From: Ignavibacteriota bacterium
Lineage (GTDB): Bacteria > Bacteroidota > Ignavibacteria > Ignavibacteriales > Melioribacteraceae
NCBI GenBank assembly: GCA_002698995.1
Contig: PAAX01000010.1
Location: 124,001 to 188,000, forward strand
Direction: 5' to 3'
DNA: 64,000 nt
Each line of letters begins with the position of its first letter. Position 1 is the stretch's first letter. Below are positions 37,316-59,397 of this stretch, piece by piece. A model generated the notes under the pieces. That model was not told where the DNA came from and did no database searches. It saw nothing but the letters and a program-made list of their open reading frames with translations. A program made the position numbers and the translations under genes.

Positions 37316-38497
37316 ATGAGAACAATAGTAGCTCTACCCGGTGATGGAATTGGAAAGGTAGTATTAGACGAATCAATTAGAGTATTAAATGCAGTTGGAT
37401 TTGAAGCAAATTATGTTCATGGTGATATCGGCTGGGAATTTTGGTGTAAAGAAGGAAATGCTCTCCCTGAAAGAACAATTAAATTATTAGAAGAGCACAA
37501 AATTGGTTTGTTTGGTGCAATAACAAGTAAACCAAAAGATGATGCAGTAAAAGAACTTGCTCCAGAACTACAAGATAAAGGTTATGTTTATTTTTCTCCG
37601 ATTGTTGGTTTACGTCAGCATTTTAATTTGGATATTTGCGTTCGTCCTTGCAAAGCATTCAAAGGAAATCCACTTAATTTTATTAGAAAAGATGGAAAAG
37701 GGGGATTTGAAGAACCTGCTGTTGATGCTGTTATTTTCAGACAAAATACAGAAGGAATGTATGGCGGAATTGAATGGACAAATCCACCAAAGAATGTTAG
37801 AGATGCATTTGAAACTCATCCAAAGATGAAAGGATTCAAACATGTACCAAGTGAAGAAATGGCAATCTCAACAAGAATTGTAACTAAGAAAGCTACGGAA
37901 AGAATTATAAGAGCTGCATTCGAATATGCAAAAAAATTCGGTTATAAAAATGTTACAGTCTGCGAAAAACCAAATGTACTAAGAGAGACATCGGGAATGT
38001 ATCTTAAAACAGCAAAGCAAATTGCTAAAGAATTTCCTGGAATAGATTTATGGGATACAAACATTGATGCACAAATGATGTGGCTGACAAAGAATCCCGA
38101 GAACTACGGTGTATTGGTTTCTGAAAATATGTTTGGAGATATTATAAGTGACGGCTTTGCCGGTCTGGTTGGTGGATTAGGTTTTGCTTGCAGCGCCAAC
38201 ATTGGTGATGAAGTTGCAGTTTTTGAACCGACACATGGTTCAGCCCCAAAATATGCTGAATTAAATCCTTCAATTGTAAATCCAATTGCAATGATTTTAA
38301 GTGCATGTATGATGTTGGATCATATTGGTGAAAATGATAAAGCAGAAAAAATACGCAAAGCAGTTGCAGAAGTTATTGGAGAAGGAAAAGTCAAAACATA
38401 CGATATGATGAAACTTAGAGGAAGCGCAAAAGCAATTGATGAAGGAGCCGCAACAACCCAGCAAATGGGAGATGCGATAATTGAGAAACTAAAGTAA
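37316..38497 (+). CDS. Isocitrate/isopropylmalate dehydrogenase family enzyme, NAD-isocitrate dehydrogenase type
   Basis: The 393-residue beta-decarboxylating dehydrogenase has the conserved GDGIG start and the substrate loop FRQNTEGMYGGIEW. NTEGxYxG favours isocitrate over isopropylmalate. Other hallmarks are the YKNVTVCEKPNV segment, metal-site aspartates in SENMFGDIISDGFAG, and the nucleotide loop EPTHGSAPKYA. Downstream aconitase supports a TCA role. No leu genes are nearby. AAGGAAG precedes the ATG. The stop codon lies inside the first unit of a heptamer array that flanks the next gene. Confidence 0.88.
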   Translation: MRTIVALPGDGIGKVVLDESIRVLNAVGFEANYVHGDIGWEFWCKEGNALPERTIKLLEEHKIGLFGAITSKPKDDAVKELAPELQDKGYVYFSPIVGLRQHFNLDICVRPCKAFKGNPLNFIRKDGKGGFEEPAVDAVIFRQNTEGMYGGIEWTNPPKNVRDAFETHPKMKGFKHVPSEEMAISTRIVTKKATERIIRAAFEYAKKFGYKNVTVCEKPNVLRETSGMYLKTAKQIAKEFPGIDLWDTNIDAQMMWLTKNPENYGVLVSENMFGDIISDGFAGLVGGLGFACSANIGDEVAVFEPTHGSAPKYAELNPSIVNPIAMILSACMMLDHIGENDKAEKIRKAVAEVIGEGKVKTYDMMKLRGSAKAIDEGAATTQQMGDAIIEKLK

Positions 38498-38521
38498 GAA
38501 GCTAGAAGTAAGAGGTTAGAA
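38494..38521 (+). repeat. Direct array of four heptamers (GTWAGAA), left flank of S23 gene A
   Basis: Four contiguous 7-bp units run here: GTAAGAA, GCTAGAA, GTAAGAG, GTTAGAA. The first overlaps the stop codon of the upstream dehydrogenase and the last abuts the GTG start of the S23 gene. The same unit recurs inverted at 38884-38911. Confidence 0.85.
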
Positions 38522-38881
38522 GTGATAGAGCTTAGTCATAAAAAATTAAAGGTCTGGCTTAAAAGTAAAAAATTAGTTTTAGAAGTTTATAAACTAACTG
38601 CAAACTTTCCAAAATCTGAAGTTTATGGAATTACCTCTCAATTAAGAAGGGCTTCAATTTCTATCATTTCTAACCTCTCAGAAGGTGCTTCTAGAAATTC
38701 CTCACAAGAGAAAAAACGATTTTTTGAAATTTCAAGATCATCATTAGTAGAATTAGATACACAAATTGAGATTTCTATAGAACTTGGATTTCTCAATCAA
38801 ATAGAGATTGAAAATTTGTCTAAACTCTCAAATGAGGTTTTTGCAATGTTGACTAATTTAATAAAGAGATATGAAAAATAA
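38522..38881 (+). CDS. S23-type four-helix-bundle protein (23S rRNA intervening-sequence family), copy A
   Basis: The 119-residue protein is a clear member of the four-helix-bundle family first seen in 23S rRNA intervening sequences: LKVWLKSKKLVLEVYKLTAN, FPKSEVYGITSQLRRASIS and SNLSEGASRNS. Here it is not in an rRNA gene but lies between an isocitrate dehydrogenase gene and an HD-domain gene. The start is GTG at 38522, directly after a heptamer array. An inverted copy of the array follows its stop. The biochemical role is unknown. Related folds include diversity-generating-retroelement Avd proteins. The layout suggests a small inserted cassette. Confidence 0.9.
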   Translation: MIELSHKKLKVWLKSKKLVLEVYKLTANFPKSEVYGITSQLRRASISIISNLSEGASRNSSQEKKRFFEISRSSLVELDTQIEISIELGFLNQIEIENLSKLSNEVFAMLTNLIKRYEK

Positions 38882-38883
38882 AC

Positions 38884-38911
38884 TTCTTACTTCTAACATC
38901 TAACTTCTTAC
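38884..38911 (-). repeat. Inverted array of four heptamers, right flank of S23 gene A
   Basis: Read on the minus strand the four units are GTAAGAA, GTTAGAT, GTTAGAA, GTAAGAA. The array begins 3 nt after the S23 stop codon and mirrors 38494-38521. Confidence 0.85.
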
Positions 38912-38923
38912 TCGGAGAAAAAA

Positions 38924-39474: not shown

Positions 39475-39528
39475 GAAGTCAAAACGTAGAGACGTGGAGA
39501 AGTAGTTGCGTAGAGACGTTAAAAAGTT
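39461..39528 (+). repeat. Direct octamer array (CGTAGAGA type)
   Basis: Eight units in strict 8-bp register run here: CGTTAAAA, TGTTGAGA, AGTCAAAA, CGTAGAGA, CGTGGAGA, AGTAGTTG, CGTAGAGA, CGTTAAAA, then AGTT. The array starts inside the 3' end of the HD gene and supplies its stop codon. No S23 gene accompanies it. Confidence 0.7.
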
Positions 39529-39585
39529 ATTACTGTTCTTTTATTAATATATTATGACTATAACTGATATTCGATAATGGTTAAA

Positions 39586-39646
39586 TTGTCATATTGATTA
39601 ATTGTTAAAAACAATGAAGCAATAAAACTATTTGACAATAAACAAT
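39586..39646. repeat. Gene-less inverted octamer array (TTGTTAAA type) upstream of aconitase
   Basis: TTG recurs at 39586, 39594 and 39602 (8-bp steps). After a 2-nt centre, the inverted CAA recurs at 39612, 39620, 39636 and 39643, with a variant CTA at 39628. The units match those flanking S23 gene B at 57.4-57.8 kb. The array could form a long imperfect hairpin in the aconitase leader region. Confidence 0.65.
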
Positions 39647-39688
39647 CTTTCAAAATGAAAGTAAACTCAGAAATTATGAGGTAAAAAT

Positions 39689-48073: not shown

Positions 48074-51000
48074 ATGGCTTTAACCTGCGAAAAATGTAAT
48101 GCACAAAATAGAGATATTGCAAAATATTGTAAGAAGTGCGGCACGGAAATTTTAAACGAAAATACTATTGGACTGGATGAATTAGTTGGATTGGGTCAGA
48201 TAAAAGATGAAATTAGAAATCTTGTTAATATTACAAAAGCCTTAAAAAACCGAAACGGCGGTGCACAGAAAATTAATATGCACTCAATTATAATCGGTGA
48301 TTCCGGTACCGGAAAAAGTACAATTGCAAATGTTTTGCAAAATTTATTTTATCAAAACGGGTTAATAACAAAGAAGCACGCTGAAATTGTTGATGCAGTT
48401 GACTACCGCGATTATACTGAAAAATTTCAAGAGAATATTCAAAAAGCTAAAGGTGGAATTCTATTTATTGATAATGCCCAGAAATTAGTACCGGGCGGGT
48501 TTGCTTCCGATATTCATCAATTGGATAAACTATTCTCCGAAATGGATAAGTTTGGTTTTGATCCTATTGTTATTCTTGCCGGATTACCGGAAGGATTTGA
48601 AGACTTTCTCGAAAAAAATCCATCTATTAAAAATCGTTTTGAATTTCACTTTAAGCTGCCTGAGTATTCGGTTAATGAATTAAATGAAATTTGTGTAAGA
48701 AAACTTGCTTCTTATAATCTATCATTAAATGAAGACTCTGCAAAAAGATTGAAATCATTATTCAAGCAGGCTTTTAAAAGTAAGAGTTCGGCTTTTGGAA
48801 ACGGGCATTTTGCTGTTAATGTTGCTGAAGATATTTTCAAAGTATATTTATCCAGAATTGCAAAGGGAGATCCTGATAATAACATTATTAAACCGGAAGA
48901 TATTAAAGGTGATATTCCGGAAGAAAAATCTTTAGATGATATAATGCATGAGTTAGATGATTTTATCGGAATGGAAAATATTAAGACTGCAGTGCGTGAA
49001 ATTGCAAAACAGATTCAAGCACAAAAGCAACGAACGGAAAGAGGAATTTGCAATGATGAAAAGCTGGGTCTTCATATAATTCTTACCGGAAATCCCGGTA
49101 CCGGAAAAACTACAATTGCAAGAAAACTTGGTGAAATATTAGCATCTATAGATTATCTGGAAAGCGGTCATGTAATAGAGGTTGATAGAAGTTCACTTGT
49201 CAGCCAATATAAAGGTGAAACTCCCAAAGTAGTTAAAGAACAATGTGATGGTGCAATGGGTGGAATTCTTTTTGTTGATGAAGCTTATACTCTTTCCGGT
49301 ACCAGCGATATTGGAGAAAAAGATGCATACGGAACAGAAGCAATTGAAACTCTGATGAAACGAATGGAAGATGATAGAGGTAAATTTGTTGTAATTGCAG
49401 CAGGTTATAAAAATTTGATGGATAAATTTTTAGATGTAAATCCGGGTATGAAAAGCCGGTTTAATAAGTATTTACATATTGAAGATTATAATCCCGTTGA
49501 GCTTTTTGAAATCTATAAAATGTTTATTAAAAAGAAAAAGTATCATTTGAGCGAAGCGGCAGAATTAAAAGTAAAAAAACTTATAGAAACCATTTACGAA
49601 AGCAGAGATAAAAATTTTGGTAATGGAAGAGAAATGAGGAAAATATTTGAGGAAACTTTGAACAAGTTTTCTCAAAGAATTAGTACAATTCCAATTTCGG
49701 AACAAACTGATGAAACTCTTATCACAATAACAGCTGAAGATATACCTTACGAAGAACCAAAAGAAAATGCCGTTGAAGAAGTTCTTGCTGAATTAAATGA
49801 ACTAACAGGATTAAAAGGAGTTAAGGATGAAATTACAAATCTTACAAACTACTTAAATCTTGAGAAGAAAAGAGCTGAACAGGGCGGAACCAAAACTCCC
49901 CTAAATATTCATTTTGTTTTTACCGGAAATCCAGGTACAGGCAAAACTACTGTAGCCAGAATATTGGGAAACGTATTCAAATCACTTGGATTATTATCCC
50001 AAGGACATGTTGTTGAAGTTGACAGATCAAAACTAGTTGCAAATTTTATTGGGCAAACCGGACCGAAAACCGATCAGATTATCAACAGTGCTTTAGGAGG
50101 AATTCTTTTTATTGATGAAGCTTATACCCTTATGCCTAAAGGATCAGACGGGGATTTCGGCAAAGAAGCAATAGAAGTGTTGCTTAAAAGAATGGAAGAT
50201 GACAGAGGAAGATTTATTGTTGTTGCAGCAGGTTACATTCAAGAGATGGATCAATTTCTCGGTGCTAATCCTGGATTAAAATCCCGCTTTACAAAGTATA
50301 TAAATTTTGAAGATTATAAAGCAGATGAACTGCAGGATATTTTCTTAAGACTTCTCAAAAAGAAAGGAATGAATTTATCCGAAGAGGCAAATGCTAAATT
50401 GAATAATTACTTTAAATCAATTTATAACAGTAAAGACAAAACATTCGGTAATGCAAGAGAAGTTAGAAATATTTTCGAAAAAACTCTGCAAAGACAAAGT
50501 GCAAGGCTTGCTGAACTGATTAAAAATAACGAACAGGTTGACAGCCAATTAAATTTAATAACATATGAAGATATTATTGGTGAAAAAGAAGAAACAAGAA
50601 CAATTGATGAAATATTGAGCAGTTTAGATTCTTTTGTTGGAATGAGCAAAGTGAAAGAATCAATAAAAGAAATAGCACAGCAGATTCAGATACAACAGGA
50701 AAGGTTGAACAGAGGTTTAGCTGGAGTTGAAAAACCTGGAGTTAACATTATTCTGACAGGAAATCCTGGAACCGGAAAAACTACTGTAACAAGAAAACTT
50801 GGGGAAATATTTAAGGCAATTGGTTTTCTTCCAAGAAATACTGTTGTTGAAGTTGACAGATCAAAGTTAGTTGCGCAGTATGTTGGCCAAACTCCACATT
50901 TGGTTAATGAGAATTGCGATAAAGCAATGGGTGGAATTCTTTTTGTTGATGAAGCTTATACTCTTACCGGAAACAGTGATATTGGTGAAAAAGATAATTA

Positions 51001-52252
51001 CGGAACAGAAGCAATTGAAACATTGATGAAAAGAATGGAAGATGATAGAGGCAAATTTGTTGTTATTGCAGCAGGTTATAAATCTGAAATGGAGAAATTT
51101 CTTGAAGCTAATCCGGGAATGAAAAGTCGTTTCGATAAATCAATTCATATTGACGATTATAAACCTGAAGAGCTATTCGAAATATTTAAAATGTTCGCTA
51201 AAAAAAGTAACTATACTCTTTCAAACAGTGCAGAAATTAAGGCTCAAAAGGCTATTTCAACAATTTATGAAAAAAGAGATAAGAATTTTGCAAATGCACG
51301 TGAGATGAGAAAACTTTTTGATGAAACTATAATGAAAGTCTCTGATAGATTAATGAGACTGCCGGAATCGGAAAAAACCAACGAGGCTTATTCAACTATT
51401 CTGCCGGAAGATATTCCTATTGAAGTACAAAAGGATTTATCAATTGAAGATGCTTTAGGCGGATTAAAAAATTTAATAGGAATGGATTCTATTAAGGATG
51501 AAGTAAGAAATCTTGCTAAATATTTAAGAGTAGAAAAGAAGCGAATTGAACTTGGTGGTGAAAAAACAGCACTGAATATTCACTTTGTATTTACAGGAAA
51601 TCCCGGAACAGGAAAAACAACGGTAGCAAGAATTATTGCAGAAGTATTTAAATCACTTGGACTTTTATCTCAAGGTCAATTAATTGAGGTCGATCGTACA
51701 AAGCTTGTTGGCTCTTACATTGGACAAACAGCACCAAAGACTGAGCAGGTTATAAATAAAGCCATGGGAGGAGTTTTATTTATTGATGAAGCATATACCT
51801 TATCTCCGCAGACACAAAGTGATTTTGGACCGGAGGCTATTAATACTTTGTTAAAACGGATGGAAGATGATAGAGGAAAGTTCTTAGTGATTGTCGCCGG
51901 TTATACAAATGAAATGGCTGAATTCTTAGAGACCAATCCAGGCTTGGCTTCCCGCTTTACAAAGAAAATTCATTTTGATGATTATCAACCTAATGAAATG
52001 ATGCAGATTATGAAATTGTTTGTAGCTAAGAAAGGAATGATTTTAGATTCTGAAGCAGAGCAATATTTAATAAATCATTTTACAGAATTATATAATAACA
52101 GAGATAAAAACTTTGGTAATGCCAGAACAGTTAGAAATATTTTTGAAAATACAATTCAAAAACAGAGCGGAAGGATTTCTGATATTTTAGATTCTCCCGA
52201 TTTTTCAGATGATCAAATAAATGTTATAAAACTTGAGGATGTAATACAATGA
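48074..52252 (+). CDS. Single-chain AAA+ ATPase with five CbxX/EccA-type modules and N-terminal zinc ribbon
   Basis: The 1392-residue protein starts with a zinc ribbon (Cys5, Cys8, Cys19, Cys22), then five tandem AAA+ modules of the CbxX/CfqX (SpoVK, EccA) family. Walker A motifs begin near residues 75, 339, 618, 896 and 1175, a ~278-residue period after the first. Modules 2-5 have TGNPGTGKT and complete (F/I)DEAYTL Walker B motifs, plus conserved PGMKSRF/PGLKSRF arginines. Module 1 has GDSGTGKST but FIDNAQ, losing the Walker B glutamate, so it may bind but not hydrolyse ATP. Modules 2 and 4 resemble each other, as do 3 and 5, implying duplication of a pair. The start is 16 nt after the kinase gene. 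Confidence 0.95.
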   Translation: MALTCEKCNAQNRDIAKYCKKCGTEILNENTIGLDELVGLGQIKDEIRNLVNITKALKNRNGGAQKINMHSIIIGDSGTGKSTIANVLQNLFYQNGLITKKHAEIVDAVDYRDYTEKFQENIQKAKGGILFIDNAQKLVPGGFASDIHQLDKLFSEMDKFGFDPIVILAGLPEGFEDFLEKNPSIKNRFEFHFKLPEYSVNELNEICVRKLASYNLSLNEDSAKRLKSLFKQAFKSKSSAFGNGHFAVNVAEDIFKVYLSRIAKGDPDNNIIKPEDIKGDIPEEKSLDDIMHELDDFIGMENIKTAVREIAKQIQAQKQRTERGICNDEKLGLHIILTGNPGTGKTTIARKLGEILASIDYLESGHVIEVDRSSLVSQYKGETPKVVKEQCDGAMGGILFVDEAYTLSGTSDIGEKDAYGTEAIETLMKRMEDDRGKFVVIAAGYKNLMDKFLDVNPGMKSRFNKYLHIEDYNPVELFEIYKMFIKKKKYHLSEAAELKVKKLIETIYESRDKNFGNGREMRKIFEETLNKFSQRISTIPISEQTDETLITITAEDIPYEEPKENAVEEVLAELNELTGLKGVKDEITNLTNYLNLEKKRAEQGGTKTPLNIHFVFTGNPGTGKTTVARILGNVFKSLGLLSQGHVVEVDRSKLVANFIGQTGPKTDQIINSALGGILFIDEAYTLMPKGSDGDFGKEAIEVLLKRMEDDRGRFIVVAAGYIQEMDQFLGANPGLKSRFTKYINFEDYKADELQDIFLRLLKKKGMNLSEEANAKLNNYFKSIYNSKDKTFGNAREVRNIFEKTLQRQSARLAELIKNNEQVDSQLNLITYEDIIGEKEETRTIDEILSSLDSFVGMSKVKESIKEIAQQIQIQQERLNRGLAGVEKPGVNIILTGNPGTGKTTVTRKLGEIFKAIGFLPRNTVVEVDRSKLVAQYVGQTPHLVNENCDKAMGGILFVDEAYTLTGNSDIGEKDNYGTEAIETLMKRMEDDRGKFVVIAAGYKSEMEKFLEANPGMKSRFDKSIHIDDYKPEELFEIFKMFAKKSNYTLSNSAEIKAQKAISTIYEKRDKNFANAREMRKLFDETIMKVSDRLMRLPESEKTNEAYSTILPEDIPIEVQKDLSIEDALGGLKNLIGMDSIKDEVRNLAKYLRVEKKRIELGGEKTALNIHFVFTGNPGTGKTTVARIIAEVFKSLGLLSQGQLIEVDRTKLVGSYIGQTAPKTEQVINKAMGGVLFIDEAYTLSPQTQSDFGPEAINTLLKRMEDDRGKFLVIVAGYTNEMAEFLETNPGLASRFTKKIHFDDYQPNEMMQIMKLFVAKKGMILDSEAEQYLINHFTELYNNRDKNFGNARTVRNIFENTIQKQSGRISDILDSPDFSDDQINVIKLEDVIQ

Positions 52253-56125: not shown

Positions 56126-57355
56126 ATGAATTCTGAGAATAAAAAAATATCTGTAGGCAAAAGAGGAAAAGAAGTCCGCTCCGATTGCTACATAGAGCTT
56201 GAGCTAAAAGAAAAAGGGGGATTAAAAATCAACCTTAACAGTAAAGTTGAATCAATGTATGGCGATTCGATAAAAACACTAATTCTTGGTATGTGTGATT
56301 TTTACAATATCGAAAATGCAGAAATTTTTATTGAGGATTCAGGTGCATTGAATTATACTTTAATGGCAAGATTTGAACTTGCAGTTAAGAAACTTTTCCC
56401 CGAAGAAAAACGGGAATGTCTCCCCGATTTCAATAAAGTAAATAAGTATAATTCATCAAAAGATAAACTAAGAAGAAGCCGTCTTTATTTACCGGGAAAC
56501 GAACCGAAATTTTACTCAAATGCCGGTCTTCATAAACCTGATGGAATTATTCTTGATCTTGAAGATAGTGTTGCTCCATCAGAAAAAGAAGCCGCACAGT
56601 TGTTAGTTAGAAATGCATTGCGAAGAGTCGATTTTTACGGTGCAGAAAGAATGGTAAGAATTAATCAGCTCCCAAAAGGATTGGATGACTTGAGGTTTAT
56701 CGTTCCTAACAATATACATGTTATTCTTATTCCAAAAGTTGAATCTGAAGAAGATATCAAACTTATTGAAGAAAAAGTTCTTTCATTAAAAGAAGAATAT
56801 AAAATCAAAAATGATATTTATTTTATGCCGATAATCGAAAGTGCAAAAGGAGTTGTTAATTCATTTCAAATAGCTTCTGCTTCAAAATTTAACTGTGCTT
56901 TAGCAGTTGGATTAGAAGATTACACAGCAGATATAGGTACAGAAAGAACGAAAGAAGGAACAGAAAGTTTTTATGCCAGAAGTGCAGTAATTAATGCTGC
57001 CAAAGCTGCTAAAATTCAAGCTATTGATACTGTCTTTTCTGATGTAAGCGATATGGAAGGATTACGAAATTCAGTTCTTGAAGCTAAGTCACTAGGATTT
57101 GATGGAAAAGGATGTATTCACCCAAGACAGATAAAAGTGATAAATGAAGCATTCCTTCCAAGTGAAAAAGAAATTGAGAAAGCGAAGAAAATTGTTATTG
57201 CCTTTGAAGAAGCTGAAGCAAAAGGATTAGGTGTAGTATCTCTAGGAAGCAAAATGATTGATGCTCCGGTAGTAAAAAGAGCAAGAAGAGTTGTAAATCT
57301 AGCCGAAGAAAATGGATTGATTGAGAAGGATTGGAGAAATATTAAGTCGCTATAG
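56126..57355 (+). CDS. citE: Fused citrate lyase acyl-carrier (CitD-like) and beta subunit (CitE-like)
   Basis: The 409-residue protein has two parts. Residues ~8-95 look like citrate lyase gamma subunit CitD: RSDCYIELELKEKGGLKINL, VESMYGDSIKTLILGM and IEDSGALNYTLMARFELAVKK. Ser19 sits where the phosphoribosyl-dephospho-CoA prosthetic group is attached in CitD. Residues ~115-409 are the CitE/HpcH-HpaI aldolase barrel: RSRLYLPGNEPKFYSNAG, IILDLEDSVAPSEKEAA, IIESAKGVVNSF and GFDGKGCIHPRQI. CitE cleaves the citryl thioester to acetyl thioester and oxaloacetate. CitF follows after an S23 gene. No citC, citX or citG is seen in the window. Confidence 0.9.
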   Translation: MNSENKKISVGKRGKEVRSDCYIELELKEKGGLKINLNSKVESMYGDSIKTLILGMCDFYNIENAEIFIEDSGALNYTLMARFELAVKKLFPEEKRECLPDFNKVNKYNSSKDKLRRSRLYLPGNEPKFYSNAGLHKPDGIILDLEDSVAPSEKEAAQLLVRNALRRVDFYGAERMVRINQLPKGLDDLRFIVPNNIHVILIPKVESEEDIKLIEEKVLSLKEEYKIKNDIYFMPIIESAKGVVNSFQIASASKFNCALAVGLEDYTADIGTERTKEGTESFYARSAVINAAKAAKIQAIDTVFSDVSDMEGLRNSVLEAKSLGFDGKGCIHPRQIKVINEAFLPSEKEIEKAKKIVIAFEEAEAKGLGVVSLGSKMIDAPVVKRARRVVNLAEENGLIEKDWRNIKSL

Positions 57356-57360
57356 ACGTT

Positions 57361-57400
57361 TTGGTCAATTGTTAAATTGCTAAATTGCTTTATTGTTAAT
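57361..57400 (+). repeat. Direct array of five octamers (TTGTTAAA), left flank of S23 gene B
   Basis: TTG starts at 57361, 57369, 57377, 57385 and 57393, exactly every 8 bp (TTGGTCAA, TTGTTAAA, TTGCTAAA, TTGCTTTA, TTGTTAAT). It begins 6 nt after the citE stop and ends 6 nt before the S23 ATG. Confidence 0.85.
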
Positions 57401-57405
57401 TTTTT

Positions 57406-57792
57406 ATGGTAGAGAAGAAAAACAAATATCTAAAACTTAATGATATTGAATCATATAAAATTGCATTTAACCTAAGCAATTATGTTTGGGAAATTGTAAA
57501 CAACTGGGATTATTTCGAAAAGAAAACAATTGGATCACAATTTGTGAATGCTATTGATTCAATTTCGGCAAATATCGCTGAGGGATTTGGAAGATACTCT
57601 AAAAAGGATAAAATCAGATTCTTCAGAATTGCCTTTGGTTCAATGTATGAATCTCTGGATTGGAATGAAAAAGCTAAAATTAGAAAATTATTAAGTGATG
57701 AAGAGTACCAGCTTATTTTTAACGAATTACAATTACTTCCAAAAGCAATAAACAGTTTGATAAAATTTACTAACGATAAACTAACAATTTAA
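57406..57792 (+). CDS. S23-type four-helix-bundle protein, copy B
   Basis: The 128-residue member of the intervening-sequence protein family has IESYKIAFNLSNYVWEIVNN, GSQFVNAIDSISANIAEGFG and RYSKKDKIRFFRIAFGSMYE. It is only distantly similar to copy A, so the two are not a recent duplication. It lies between citE and citF and is flanked by inverted octamer arrays. Its last codons (KLTI-stop) are encoded by the right-hand array. No good ribosome-binding site is seen before the ATG. Confidence 0.88.
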   Translation: MVEKKNKYLKLNDIESYKIAFNLSNYVWEIVNNWDYFEKKTIGSQFVNAIDSISANIAEGFGRYSKKDKIRFFRIAFGSMYESLDWNEKAKIRKLLSDEEYQLIFNELQLLPKAINSLIKFTNDKLTI

Positions 57793-57812
57793 CAATTAGA
57801 CAATTCAGCAAT
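57781..57812 (-). repeat. Inverted array of four octamers, right flank of S23 gene B
   Basis: CAA recurs at 57785, 57793, 57801 and 57809 (8-bp steps). On the minus strand these are TTGCTGAA, TTGTCTAA, TTGTTAAA, TTGTTAGT, mirroring the left array. The array overlaps the end of the S23 gene. Confidence 0.85.
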
Positions 57813-57840
57813 AAAAAAATTATAAACTCTGGACATAAAT

Positions 57841-59397
57841 ATGAAACTAGTTAAAAATGCAGTCAACAGACTCGTACCAAATGAGGTTAATGGTGAAAAA
57901 CAAATTCCATTTCAAGGTGTTGGTAAGTATAAGCCAATTGGGAACAAAGCTAAACCACCTATTAGAAGCTGTGCCGACTATCCAGCTGATGGGAATAAAA
58001 TTATTAAATCACTAAAAGAAGCATTGAAAAAAGCCGGGCTGAAAGATGGAATGACAATCTCAACACATCATCATTTGAGAAACGGTGATGTTTTAACAAA
58101 TTTCCTTTTTGATACTATTAAAGAAATGGGAATAAAAAATATTAGATGGTTTCCAAGTGCATCCTTCCCCTGTCATCAGCATTTGATTCAATATTTGGAA
58201 GATGGAACAATCCATCATATTGAAGGAAGTATGAACGGACCTTTAGGAAGATTTACGACTGAGGGCAAGATGAAGGGAATCGGAATTCTACGTTCTCACG
58301 GCGGAAGATATCAGTCAATTCAAGACGGTGATGTTCATATTGATATTGCAGTTATTGCAGCTCCAACTGCTGATTCATTTGGAAATGCTACAGGAGATAG
58401 AGGAAAATCAGCTTGCGGATTATTAGGTTTTGCCCTTGGTGATTCTGAATATGCAGATAAAGTTATTGTTGTAACAGATAACTTAGTTCCCTTCCCTTGT
58501 TATCCATGGCAAATACAAGGGAATAATGTTGATTATGTTGTTGAGATTGATTCACTCGGCGATCCTTCCAAAATTGTTTCCGGAACAACAGAAGTTACAA
58601 AAAGTCCGGATAGACTATTAATAGCAGAATATGTAGCTCAATTTTTTGAAGATGCCGGAATTATGAAAGATGGATTTTCATTCCAAGCAGGTGCCGGTGG
58701 AACTAATCTTGCCTTTGCAGTCTATCTAAAAGAAAAAATGAAAGCCAAAGGAATTAAAGCAAGATTTATAAGAGGCGGAAGTACAAAATATCTTGTTGAA
58801 ATGCTTGAAGAAGGATTAACCGATTATATTCTTGACGGACAAACTTTTGATCTTGAAGGAGTAAGATCTATGAGAGAAAATCCTGGGCATGTAAATACTT
58901 CTCCTTTTACAAGTTATAATTATCATGGTAAAGGAAACTTTGCATCAATTATTGATGCTGTTGTTCTTGGCGCTACAGAAGTTGATATTAACTTTAATGC
59001 AAATGTTGTAACTCATTCAGATGGTTATTTACTTCATGGAATTGGAGGATGGCAGAACTGCTTATTTTCTAAATGTACTATTTTAGCAATTCCATCATTT
59101 AGAGATAGGATTCCTGTTATTGTTGATGAAGTAACTACTTTATGCGGTCCAGGCGAACTTATTGATGTCATTATCACAGAAAGAGGAATTGCTATTAATC
59201 CAAAGAGAAAAGATTTAATTAAAGCAATGAAAAATTCTTCTCTTCCGGTTAAAAAGATTGAAGAGATAAAAGCTGAAGTAGATTCAATCTGTGGCGGAGA
59301 ACCGGCAAAACCTAAATTGAATAAAGAGAATGTTGTTGCAGTTGTTAAATGGGTTGATGGAACTCTTCTAGATTCCGTTTTTCAAATTGAGAATTAG
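57841..59397 (+). CDS. citF: Citrate lyase alpha subunit (citrate CoA-transferase)
   Basis: The 518-residue protein matches CitF over its whole length: TISTHHHLRNGDVLTNFLFD, SMNGPLGRFTTEGKM, ILRSHGGRYQSIQDGDVHID, GNATGDRGKSACGLLGF, FQAGAGGTNLAFAV and LCGPGELIDVIITERGIAI. CitF transfers the acyl-carrier thiol from acetate to citrate in the citrate lyase complex. With the CitD-CitE fusion upstream, all three structural parts of citrate lyase are present. An S23 cassette lies between them. In this organism type the complex might also serve acetyl-CoA formation from citrate, which is inference. Confidence 0.93.
   Translation: MKLVKNAVNRLVPNEVNGEKQIPFQGVGKYKPIGNKAKPPIRSCADYPADGNKIIKSLKEALKKAGLKDGMTISTHHHLRNGDVLTNFLFDTIKEMGIKNIRWFPSASFPCHQHLIQYLEDGTIHHIEGSMNGPLGRFTTEGKMKGIGILRSHGGRYQSIQDGDVHIDIAVIAAPTADSFGNATGDRGKSACGLLGFALGDSEYADKVIVVTDNLVPFPCYPWQIQGNNVDYVVEIDSLGDPSKIVSGTTEVTKSPDRLLIAEYVAQFFEDAGIMKDGFSFQAGAGGTNLAFAVYLKEKMKAKGIKARFIRGGSTKYLVEMLEEGLTDYILDGQTFDLEGVRSMRENPGHVNTSPFTSYNYHGKGNFASIIDAVVLGATEVDINFNANVVTHSDGYLLHGIGGWQNCLFSKCTILAIPSFRDRIPVIVDEVTTLCGPGELIDVIITERGIAINPKRKDLIKAMKNSSLPVKKIEEIKAEVDSICGGEPAKPKLNKENVVAVVKWVDGTLLDSVFQIEN

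Follow-up and report, generated by a model that had tools for sequence, protein, structure and literature searches.

The 64,000-nucleotide stretch of DNA analysed here (hereafter, the window) carries a citDE-citF operon in which the gap between the fused citDE gene and citF is occupied by a gene of the 23S rRNA-intervening-sequence (S23) protein family, here called copy B, with an array of short tandem repeats at either end (Table 1). Upstream, four clear octamers (AATTGTTA, 57367-57374; AATTGCTA, 57375-57382; AATTGCTT, 57383-57390; TATTGTTA, 57391-57398) follow one another at exact 8-bp steps; a fifth, ATTTTTTA (57399-57406), is degenerate, and its final A is the first base of the ATG. The original prediction had counted five octamers at exact 8-bp steps, of which the spacing and four units stand, but the fifth does not as a clear unit. 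At the other end, four octamers in inverted orientation (TAACAATT at both 57782-57789 and 57790-57797, AGACAATT at 57798-57805 and CAGCAATA at 57806-57813) run across the end of the ORF, and direct reading agrees with the prediction that they encode its last residues, the first octamer coding for Thr-Ile and the second containing the TAA stop.

Table 1. Genes and repeat arms of the two S23 loci (positions in the window)
Feature	Position	Strand	Description	Basis
Upstream arm, copy A	38493..38523	+	7-bp unit, AGAAGTA type	Arm alignment score 37
S23 gene, copy A	38522..38881	+	119 aa	PF05635, 118 bits
Downstream arm, copy A	38882..38912	+	Inverted	
CitE (citrate lyase beta subunit), upstream operon neighbour of copy B	56126..57355	+		PF03328, PF06857
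Upstream arm, copy B	57367..57406	+	Octamers (A/T)ATTG(T/C)T(A/T), four, plus a degenerate unit into the start codon	Direct reading; TRF 57367-57389, period 8; alignment with inverted downstream arm, score 35
S23 gene, copy B (23S rRNA-intervening-sequence protein)	57406..57792	+	128 aa	
Downstream arm, copy B	57782..57813	+	4 inverted octamers	Direct reading; TRF 57782-57805, period 8
CitF (citrate lyase alpha subunit), downstream operon neighbour of copy B	57841..59397	+		PF04223; TIGR01584 above cut-off

The copy B protein matched PF05635 (81.2 bits, cut-off 33.8) and TIGR02436 (85.9 bits, cut-off 24), and its relatives in the PDB, 2GSC (XCC0516) and 2RLD, belong to the stand-alone S23/four-helix-bundle family. 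The citDE product matched TIGR01588 and TIGR01608, both below cut-off, and has a CitD acyl-carrier domain fused N-terminally (PF06857, residues 19-89). Elsewhere in the window, a 1392-aa protein (48074-52252) resembles, by eye, several tandem AAA+ ATPase repeats after a zinc-ribbon-like start, and its gene adjoins an FHA-like ORF and a PP2C-like ORF.

A second S23 gene, copy A, has an upstream arm that starts within the 3′ end of the isocitrate dehydrogenase gene, and is followed by a 134-aa ORF without a Pfam match and then by the aconitase gene. As had been predicted, the layout of A and B is the same, while the unit differs (7 versus 8 bp) and the proteins are diverged (24 % identity). In the gap between the 134-aa ORF and the aconitase gene (39475-39688), there is a ACGTAGAG-type array without an S23 gene. 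A short inverted pair of TTGTTAAA type, which is the unit type of copy B, can also be made out there by eye; in the relatives L045, L050, L070 and L077, this same gap holds an S23 gene.

Arm scores were obtained by local alignment of the upstream flank of an S23 gene with the reverse complement of its downstream flank. As inverted copies, the arms of copy B scored 35 (match 2, mismatch -3), against a median of 19 and a 99th percentile of 34 for 210 control ORFs of related loci, and a median of 18 and a 99th percentile of 37 for arms swapped among S23 loci. By these yardsticks, copy B is only moderately strong on its own, and the case rests on the whole set. The genome that contains the window has 11 PF05635 matches at about nine loci, eight of which show inverted arrays by eye, and six of the seven S23 genes that were scored reached at least 35 (copy A, 37). 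Locus L001 of this genome scored 19 and has no convincing arms; two further S23 genes, which are in pieces and not among the seven, have arrays visible by eye. At L198 (G000:C26:1500-5000, 1186-1907), an S23 gene of the same genome is split by an 87-aa GIY-YIG nuclease ORF (PF01541, 55.7 bits) lying between its two halves.

Matches to PF05635 were obtained in 77 of the 79 genomes of the GTDB family and, in a sample of 148 genomes from the phylum, in 116. For 70 unique loci from the own genome and family, the median arm score was 34, compared with 18 for swapped arms, 19 for arms in direct orientation and 19 for the 210 control ORFs, and 20/70 loci versus 1/210 control ORFs exceeded the swapped-arm 99th percentile (37). 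A wider scoring, restricted to loci that have 150 bp of flanking sequence and an almost full-length domain, covered 226 unique S23 loci in five groups, with own-arm medians of 32 in the own genome and family (n=88), 29 in the phylum (n=25), 41 in a many-phyla set (n=74), 35.5 in eight further genomes (n=18) and 45 in cyanobacteria (n=21); swapped arms had medians of 17-18 in all five (AUC own versus swapped, 0.88-0.98). A score of at least 28 was reached by 167/226 S23 loci against 3/66 control ORFs from outside the family, leaving 59 S23 loci below that value. The many-phyla set is biased, as it comprises the best 80 of 571 relatives of one query (six of the 80 were dropped for short flanks); the titles of its loci include Planctomycetota, Acidobacteria, Verrucomicrobia, Deltaproteobacteria, Clostridia, Chloroflexi, Omnitrophota and a Lyngbya. 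The upper tail of its swapped-arm scores is long (95th percentile 39; 38/74 own pairs lie above this value), because the units have a common core. In one cyanobacterial genome, inspection by eye showed units that vary among its six S23 loci (L258 and L314 designate a single locus).

We are highly confident that the S23 gene and its arms belong together. The original prediction had argued that chance was an improbable source of the layout, and chance or base composition was indeed rejected on the basis of the swapped arms, the direct-orientation arms and the control ORFs. It had proposed a genome-wide check of the association and of unit variation; S23 genes and arms proved to be associated in the own genome and also in the GTDB family, the phylum, many phyla and cyanobacteria, and the units of the own-genome loci differ by eye from one locus to the next. 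The weight that it gave to the citrate-metabolism setting was misplaced: further copies occupy the nuoC-nuoD gap or lie in other operons, which rules out a citrate-specific meaning and makes the setting of copies A and B incidental.

The association was also approached from the side of the arrays, by scanning 399 kb (the window plus L041-L080) for array pairs whose members are separated by 200-900 bp; this is an S23-centred sample and not a genome-wide census. The scan yielded 25 inverted pairs: 23 have an S23 gene between their arrays, and the others are 3 and 73 bp away from one. Only one of six direct pairs was with S23. The scan was strict, returning 23 pairs against 48 S23 ORFs or pieces in the scanned sequence and missing copy B. 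With looser settings, there were 34 inverted pairs (31 at S23) and eight direct pairs (four) at a spacer of 250-900 bp, and two inverted pairs (one near S23) and 17 direct pairs (nine near S23) at 5-250 bp. These counts bear on the idea that the arrays are neutral microsatellites, generated by slippage and inverted copying, which gather in intergenic gaps and have nothing to do with S23. Heptads are over-represented among the long simple repeats of many bacteria, with slippage proposed as their origin in the parts of the two reports available to us (PMC4679880, PMC4692102), and two repeat-rich genomes described below have many arrays and few S23 genes. The idea does not account for inverted pairs that almost all enclose an S23 gene, for a unit that follows the S23 protein over many phyla or for arms that change more slowly than the neighbouring spacer (both below); it is already disfavoured, and we regard it as very improbable.

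The repeat unit has a period of 7 bp in 130 of 167 arms, 8 bp in 27, 6 bp in five and 9 bp in five. Phase alignment of the heptads gave the consensus A(.84) G(.82) T(.63) R G T Y; such alignment inflates a consensus, a point met by 30 position-permuted controls, which reached a mean information of 1.62 and a maximum of 1.72 compared with 2.96 for the heptads. The upstream arm presents the G-rich strand in 149/167 loci and the C-rich strand in 10/167. The 8-bp unit of copy B (ATTGTTAA type) is among those without the AG core. At two citE-citF loci, L171 and L193, the arms contain two successive units, of TCATTGG/TCATTAG type and TTGTTAAA type, an arrangement suggestive of the replacement of an array or of nesting of one array in another.

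The relation between unit and protein was assessed with pairs of S23 loci. Among 239 pairs with proteins of at least 65 % identity, 117 share a neighbouring gene, 102 share none on either side and 20 are undetermined; the comparison was made on 24190 pairs, excluding those that share a neighbour or are undetermined and including all pairs below 65 %, for which neighbours were not compared. Upstream-arm similarity rose with protein similarity, from 15.3 (<0.2) through 20.6 (0.5-0.6) and 25.1 (0.6-0.7) to 33.6 (>0.7, n=16), while a control stretch further upstream gave 14.5, 15.8, 17.4 and 14.7 in the same bins. The control rises somewhat in the middle bins, so unrecognised relatedness of the surroundings may account for part of the rise of the units there. 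When only the own family is considered, unit and protein have a weak rank correlation of 0.10, against 0.09 for the control; in the many-phyla set, on which the result mainly rests, it was 0.28 against 0.07. These sequence comparisons establish that the unit follows the S23 protein across many phyla, even where no shared neighbour is found. As a separate observation, three loci from genomes titled Oligosphaera, Fibrobacter and Anaerolineaceae (L233, L244 and L276) encode S23 proteins that are 86-92 % identical, and L233 has neighbours in common (66-69 %) with both of the others, suggesting horizontal transfer of an operon including the S23 element.

Two operon sites could be compared among relatives. 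At 67 nuoC-nuoD junctions, 20 contain S23 (one truncated), 35 have a gap of <60 bp, six have a longer gap without S23 and six were unresolved; at citE-citF, the site of copy B, where 57 of 60 listed places were examined, the corresponding numbers are 17, 22, 11 and seven. The short gaps represent empty target sites in relatives (35/61 resolved nuoC-nuoD and 22/50 resolved citE-citF junctions). In the nuoC-nuoD gaps of L122, L139 and L156, an apparent scar of the downstream arm remains. The array starts at a nuoC stop TAG in 18/20 filled loci, and TAG is present in 3/35 empty sites. No target-site duplication stood out at the nuo and cit sites, which were inspected by eye only, and no excision product of the S23 element was seen.

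At both sites, the arms of a locus resemble each other more than they resemble arms swapped across species (nuoC-nuoD: own-arm mean 32.8 versus 21.7, n=19, 0/20000 permutations as high; citE-citF: 34.1 versus 25.9, n=17, p 0.0001), so that, as judged from these alignments, the two arms of one locus change together. This is an effect of averages, with the own partner being the single best match in only 3/19 nuo and 3/17 cit loci and with arm scores of 15-20 at four citE-citF loci.

One explanation would place the matching in RNA: in the polycistronic transcript, the arrays would pair in a long stem, and cleavage of this stem by RNase III would remove or isolate the S23 message, much as in a 23S rRNA intervening sequence (IVS); selection on the stem would keep the arms alike. 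It can point to the nearly constant co-orientation of S23 with its operon in the own genome and family (upstream neighbour 84/85, downstream 74/80) and in the phylum (21/22 and 21/24), which is weaker outside the phylum (many-phyla set, 39/51 and 38/55; remaining loci, 29/35 and 30/37), as well as to predicted duplexes of -17.6 kcal/mol for copy B and -31.8 kcal/mol for copy A, compared with -9.7 (sd 2.6) and -13.8 (sd 3.3), respectively, for mononucleotide shuffles. The IVS of Coxiella is, according to the portion of the source consulted, excised by RNase III at a stem of its complementary ends (PMC4990558). A selected RNA stem should, however, tolerate G.U over A.C mismatches, and no such excess was found, with 272 G.U-type against 249 A.C-type mismatches at 167 loci (p 0.34) and 230 against 198 at the 125 loci of a stricter cut (p 0.13), so RNA pairing has not been shown to match the arms. 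Some arms, moreover, take in the upstream stop codon or the start or stop of S23. From the sequences, the matching looks strand-symmetric. With no support from the wobble test, the RNA stem was rejected as the sole reason for the matching; the explanation as a whole appears rather unlikely to us, although action of the arms in RNA is possible.

For 12 close pairs of loci, the arms differ at 51/606 positions and the spacer between arm and gene at 96/520 (60 gap positions, in the arms only, were counted apart); in two of the pairs, L024/L038 and L353/L354, the arms change as fast as the spacer or faster. The S23 proteins themselves are kept under purifying selection, as indicated by dN/dS values that were mostly 0.02-0.2 among the 40 closest of 86 S23 pairs (highest 0.35, one undefined). 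In a tree of 88 family S23 proteins, the 18 nuo rows group in a single clade (support 87/61), 14 rows of the cit site make up another, and a third unites seven rows from two neighbouring gaps of the icd-aconitase operon, with the gap changing inside it. The cit clade has a deep internal split (branch 1.2), so two insertions at citE-citF are not excluded; in the labelling of the tree, L171, L186 and L191 are tagged as 'other' even though they are citE-citF loci, and L098, L172 and L178 are absent. Clades so faithful to their sites suggest that the element is long resident at a site, with loss or regain, and that movement is rare; the most similar S23 pair in different contexts, L279/L303, is 84 % identical.

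Site-faithful clades, purifying selection, arms that are overall more conserved than the nearby spacer and downstream arms that stop shortly ahead of the next start codon would all be expected if the arms were regulatory hairpins or translation-control leaders serving the S23 gene and its downstream neighbour, never mobile, with S23 an ordinary, vertically inherited operon gene. Such a gene would not readily show the patchy presence and the empty sites in relatives, nor would loci for which no common neighbouring gene is found be likely to resemble each other in both S23 protein and unit. The units also vary freely across loci, unlike the site of a regulator. We consider this account unlikely.

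Of the known systems, the IVS is the closest in our reading. That of Coxiella burnetii is described, in the part of the report available, as 428 nt long with complementary ends forming a 28-bp stem that is cut by RNase III, and its S23 ORF is preceded by two to three tandem heptamers, GACAGAT, whose number varies among strains (PMC4990558). The same portion of that source states that the Coxiella S23 protein is probably not made in vivo and is under reductive evolution, describes its family as without known function, names IVSs also for Leptospira and Brucella, and cites a solved Xanthomonas relative that forms a ring of five four-helix bundles (PMC4990558). The operon elements share with the IVS an S23-family ORF (PF05635, and TIGR02436 above cut-off in copy B), complementary ends, a similar size and, as far as the Coxiella description goes, tandem heptamers ahead of the ORF (PMC4990558). 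They differ in that they lie between protein genes rather than within 23S rRNA, in that their ends are short-unit arrays with a unit that differs among loci, and in that their S23 gene is conserved, in contrast to the reductively evolving gene reported, in the text seen, for Coxiella (PMC4990558). No 23S rRNA location was detected for the copies of the window, in which Rfam at gathering score finds only a tRNA. For the other loci, such a location was tried and set aside: exact matches to seven 23S motifs, a weak test, hit only L348, where Rfam found nothing.

Avd (bAvd, PF22296) of diversity-generating retroelements belongs to a family related to S23 and is likewise a four-helix bundle. Neither copy qualifies as bAvd, copy A reaching 29.5 bits against a cut-off of 40 and copy B giving no match at E 0.001. 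The empty sites in relatives are like those of an insertion sequence or transposon; unlike in such elements, there is no transposase or recombinase between the arms of A and B, where S23 is the sole ORF.

Short, mostly intergenic 7-bp tandem arrays are the point of likeness with the heptameric repeats (STRRs and kin) of other bacteria, copy B itself being of 8 bp. From partial access to the reports, these include GGGAATC in Xanthomonas, two genomes of which have 70 and 75 convergent (inverted) heptamer pairs, and GGGGA(C/T)T in Nostoc (PMC4692102), TAACTGA in Beggiatoaceae (PMC4679880) and heptameric repeats in Thiomargarita (PMC4853749). The terms S23, four helix and 23S are absent from the main texts of PMC4692102 and PMC4679880, as is S23 from that of PMC4853749, and inverted arrays around S23 genes were undescribed in the literature searched (titles and abstract openings, with subscription journals mostly uncovered).

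The strong form of this likeness, in which all bacterial heptad repeats would be S23 arms, fails in two repeat-rich genomes, which, as a mere guess based on their repeats, might be a xanthomonad and a relative of Nostoc. Among 369 genomes of the class of G215 that were searched, one, the gammaproteobacterial G646, has the GGGAATC pattern, at nine overlapping places, and its sole S23 match is partial. Of five places viewed, two have a single array and three have arrays in both orientations that are tens to about 200 bp apart, leaving no room for S23. In the cyanobacterial G263, 597 matches to the GGGGA(C/T)T pattern stand against three to S23. Among the listed positions, which are part of the 597, none lies <1 kb from the S23 match at C1:743937, and two arrays viewed near that match have no inverted partner within the 3-kb stretch. 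Both S23 loci that were viewed in this genome carry units other than GGGGA(C/T)T. With so few S23 genes, the heptad arrays of G263 and G646 cannot mostly be S23 arms in cis. L364, L367 and L371, in G646, resemble small non-autonomous elements of inverted arrays, with no S23 between them.

We lean, with modest confidence at most, towards reading copy B as a compact element consisting of an S23 gene and inverted short-unit arrays in an operon gap, the working of which is inferred. By analogy, the best reading of the element is as an operon-dwelling counterpart of the 23S rRNA IVS, with its function and movement likewise inferred. The arms would be part of the element and would be recognised by the S23 protein, for which there are no binding data and against which the net charge of the S23 domains, only about +2, counts. 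The protein, a five-fold ring in a solved relative, might recognise them as a hairpin or cruciform joining both ends. The matching of the arms would be kept at the DNA level and not by RNA stem stability alone, either through one arm being copied from the other or through selection for a common recognition sequence. Such an element may be selfish or commensal, settling directly after a stop codon, where it would do the least harm, and would be inherited faithfully at its site for long periods while moving rarely. A further step, in which each S23 variant recognises its own repeat at both ends, and builds and maintains it there by some kind of copying, and orphan heptad arrays are leftover or non-autonomous members, is speculative and, in our estimate, distinctly improbable; if true, such protein-programmed repeats would provide a source for the heptamer arrays of Nostoc, Xanthomonas and Beggiatoaceae.

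In our reading, this is an IVS-like cassette in operons with locus-specific repeat arms, and the finding is more general than it first seemed. Separated arrays that change together offer a natural case in which DNA-level copying may be told from selection for pairing. The paired, locus-specific arrays would make of the scattered, hypothetical S23 gene a defined element that has ends, empty sites and partners open to testing, and this element would link 23S rRNA intervening sequences, stand-alone S23 genes and, possibly, some unexplained heptamer repeats.
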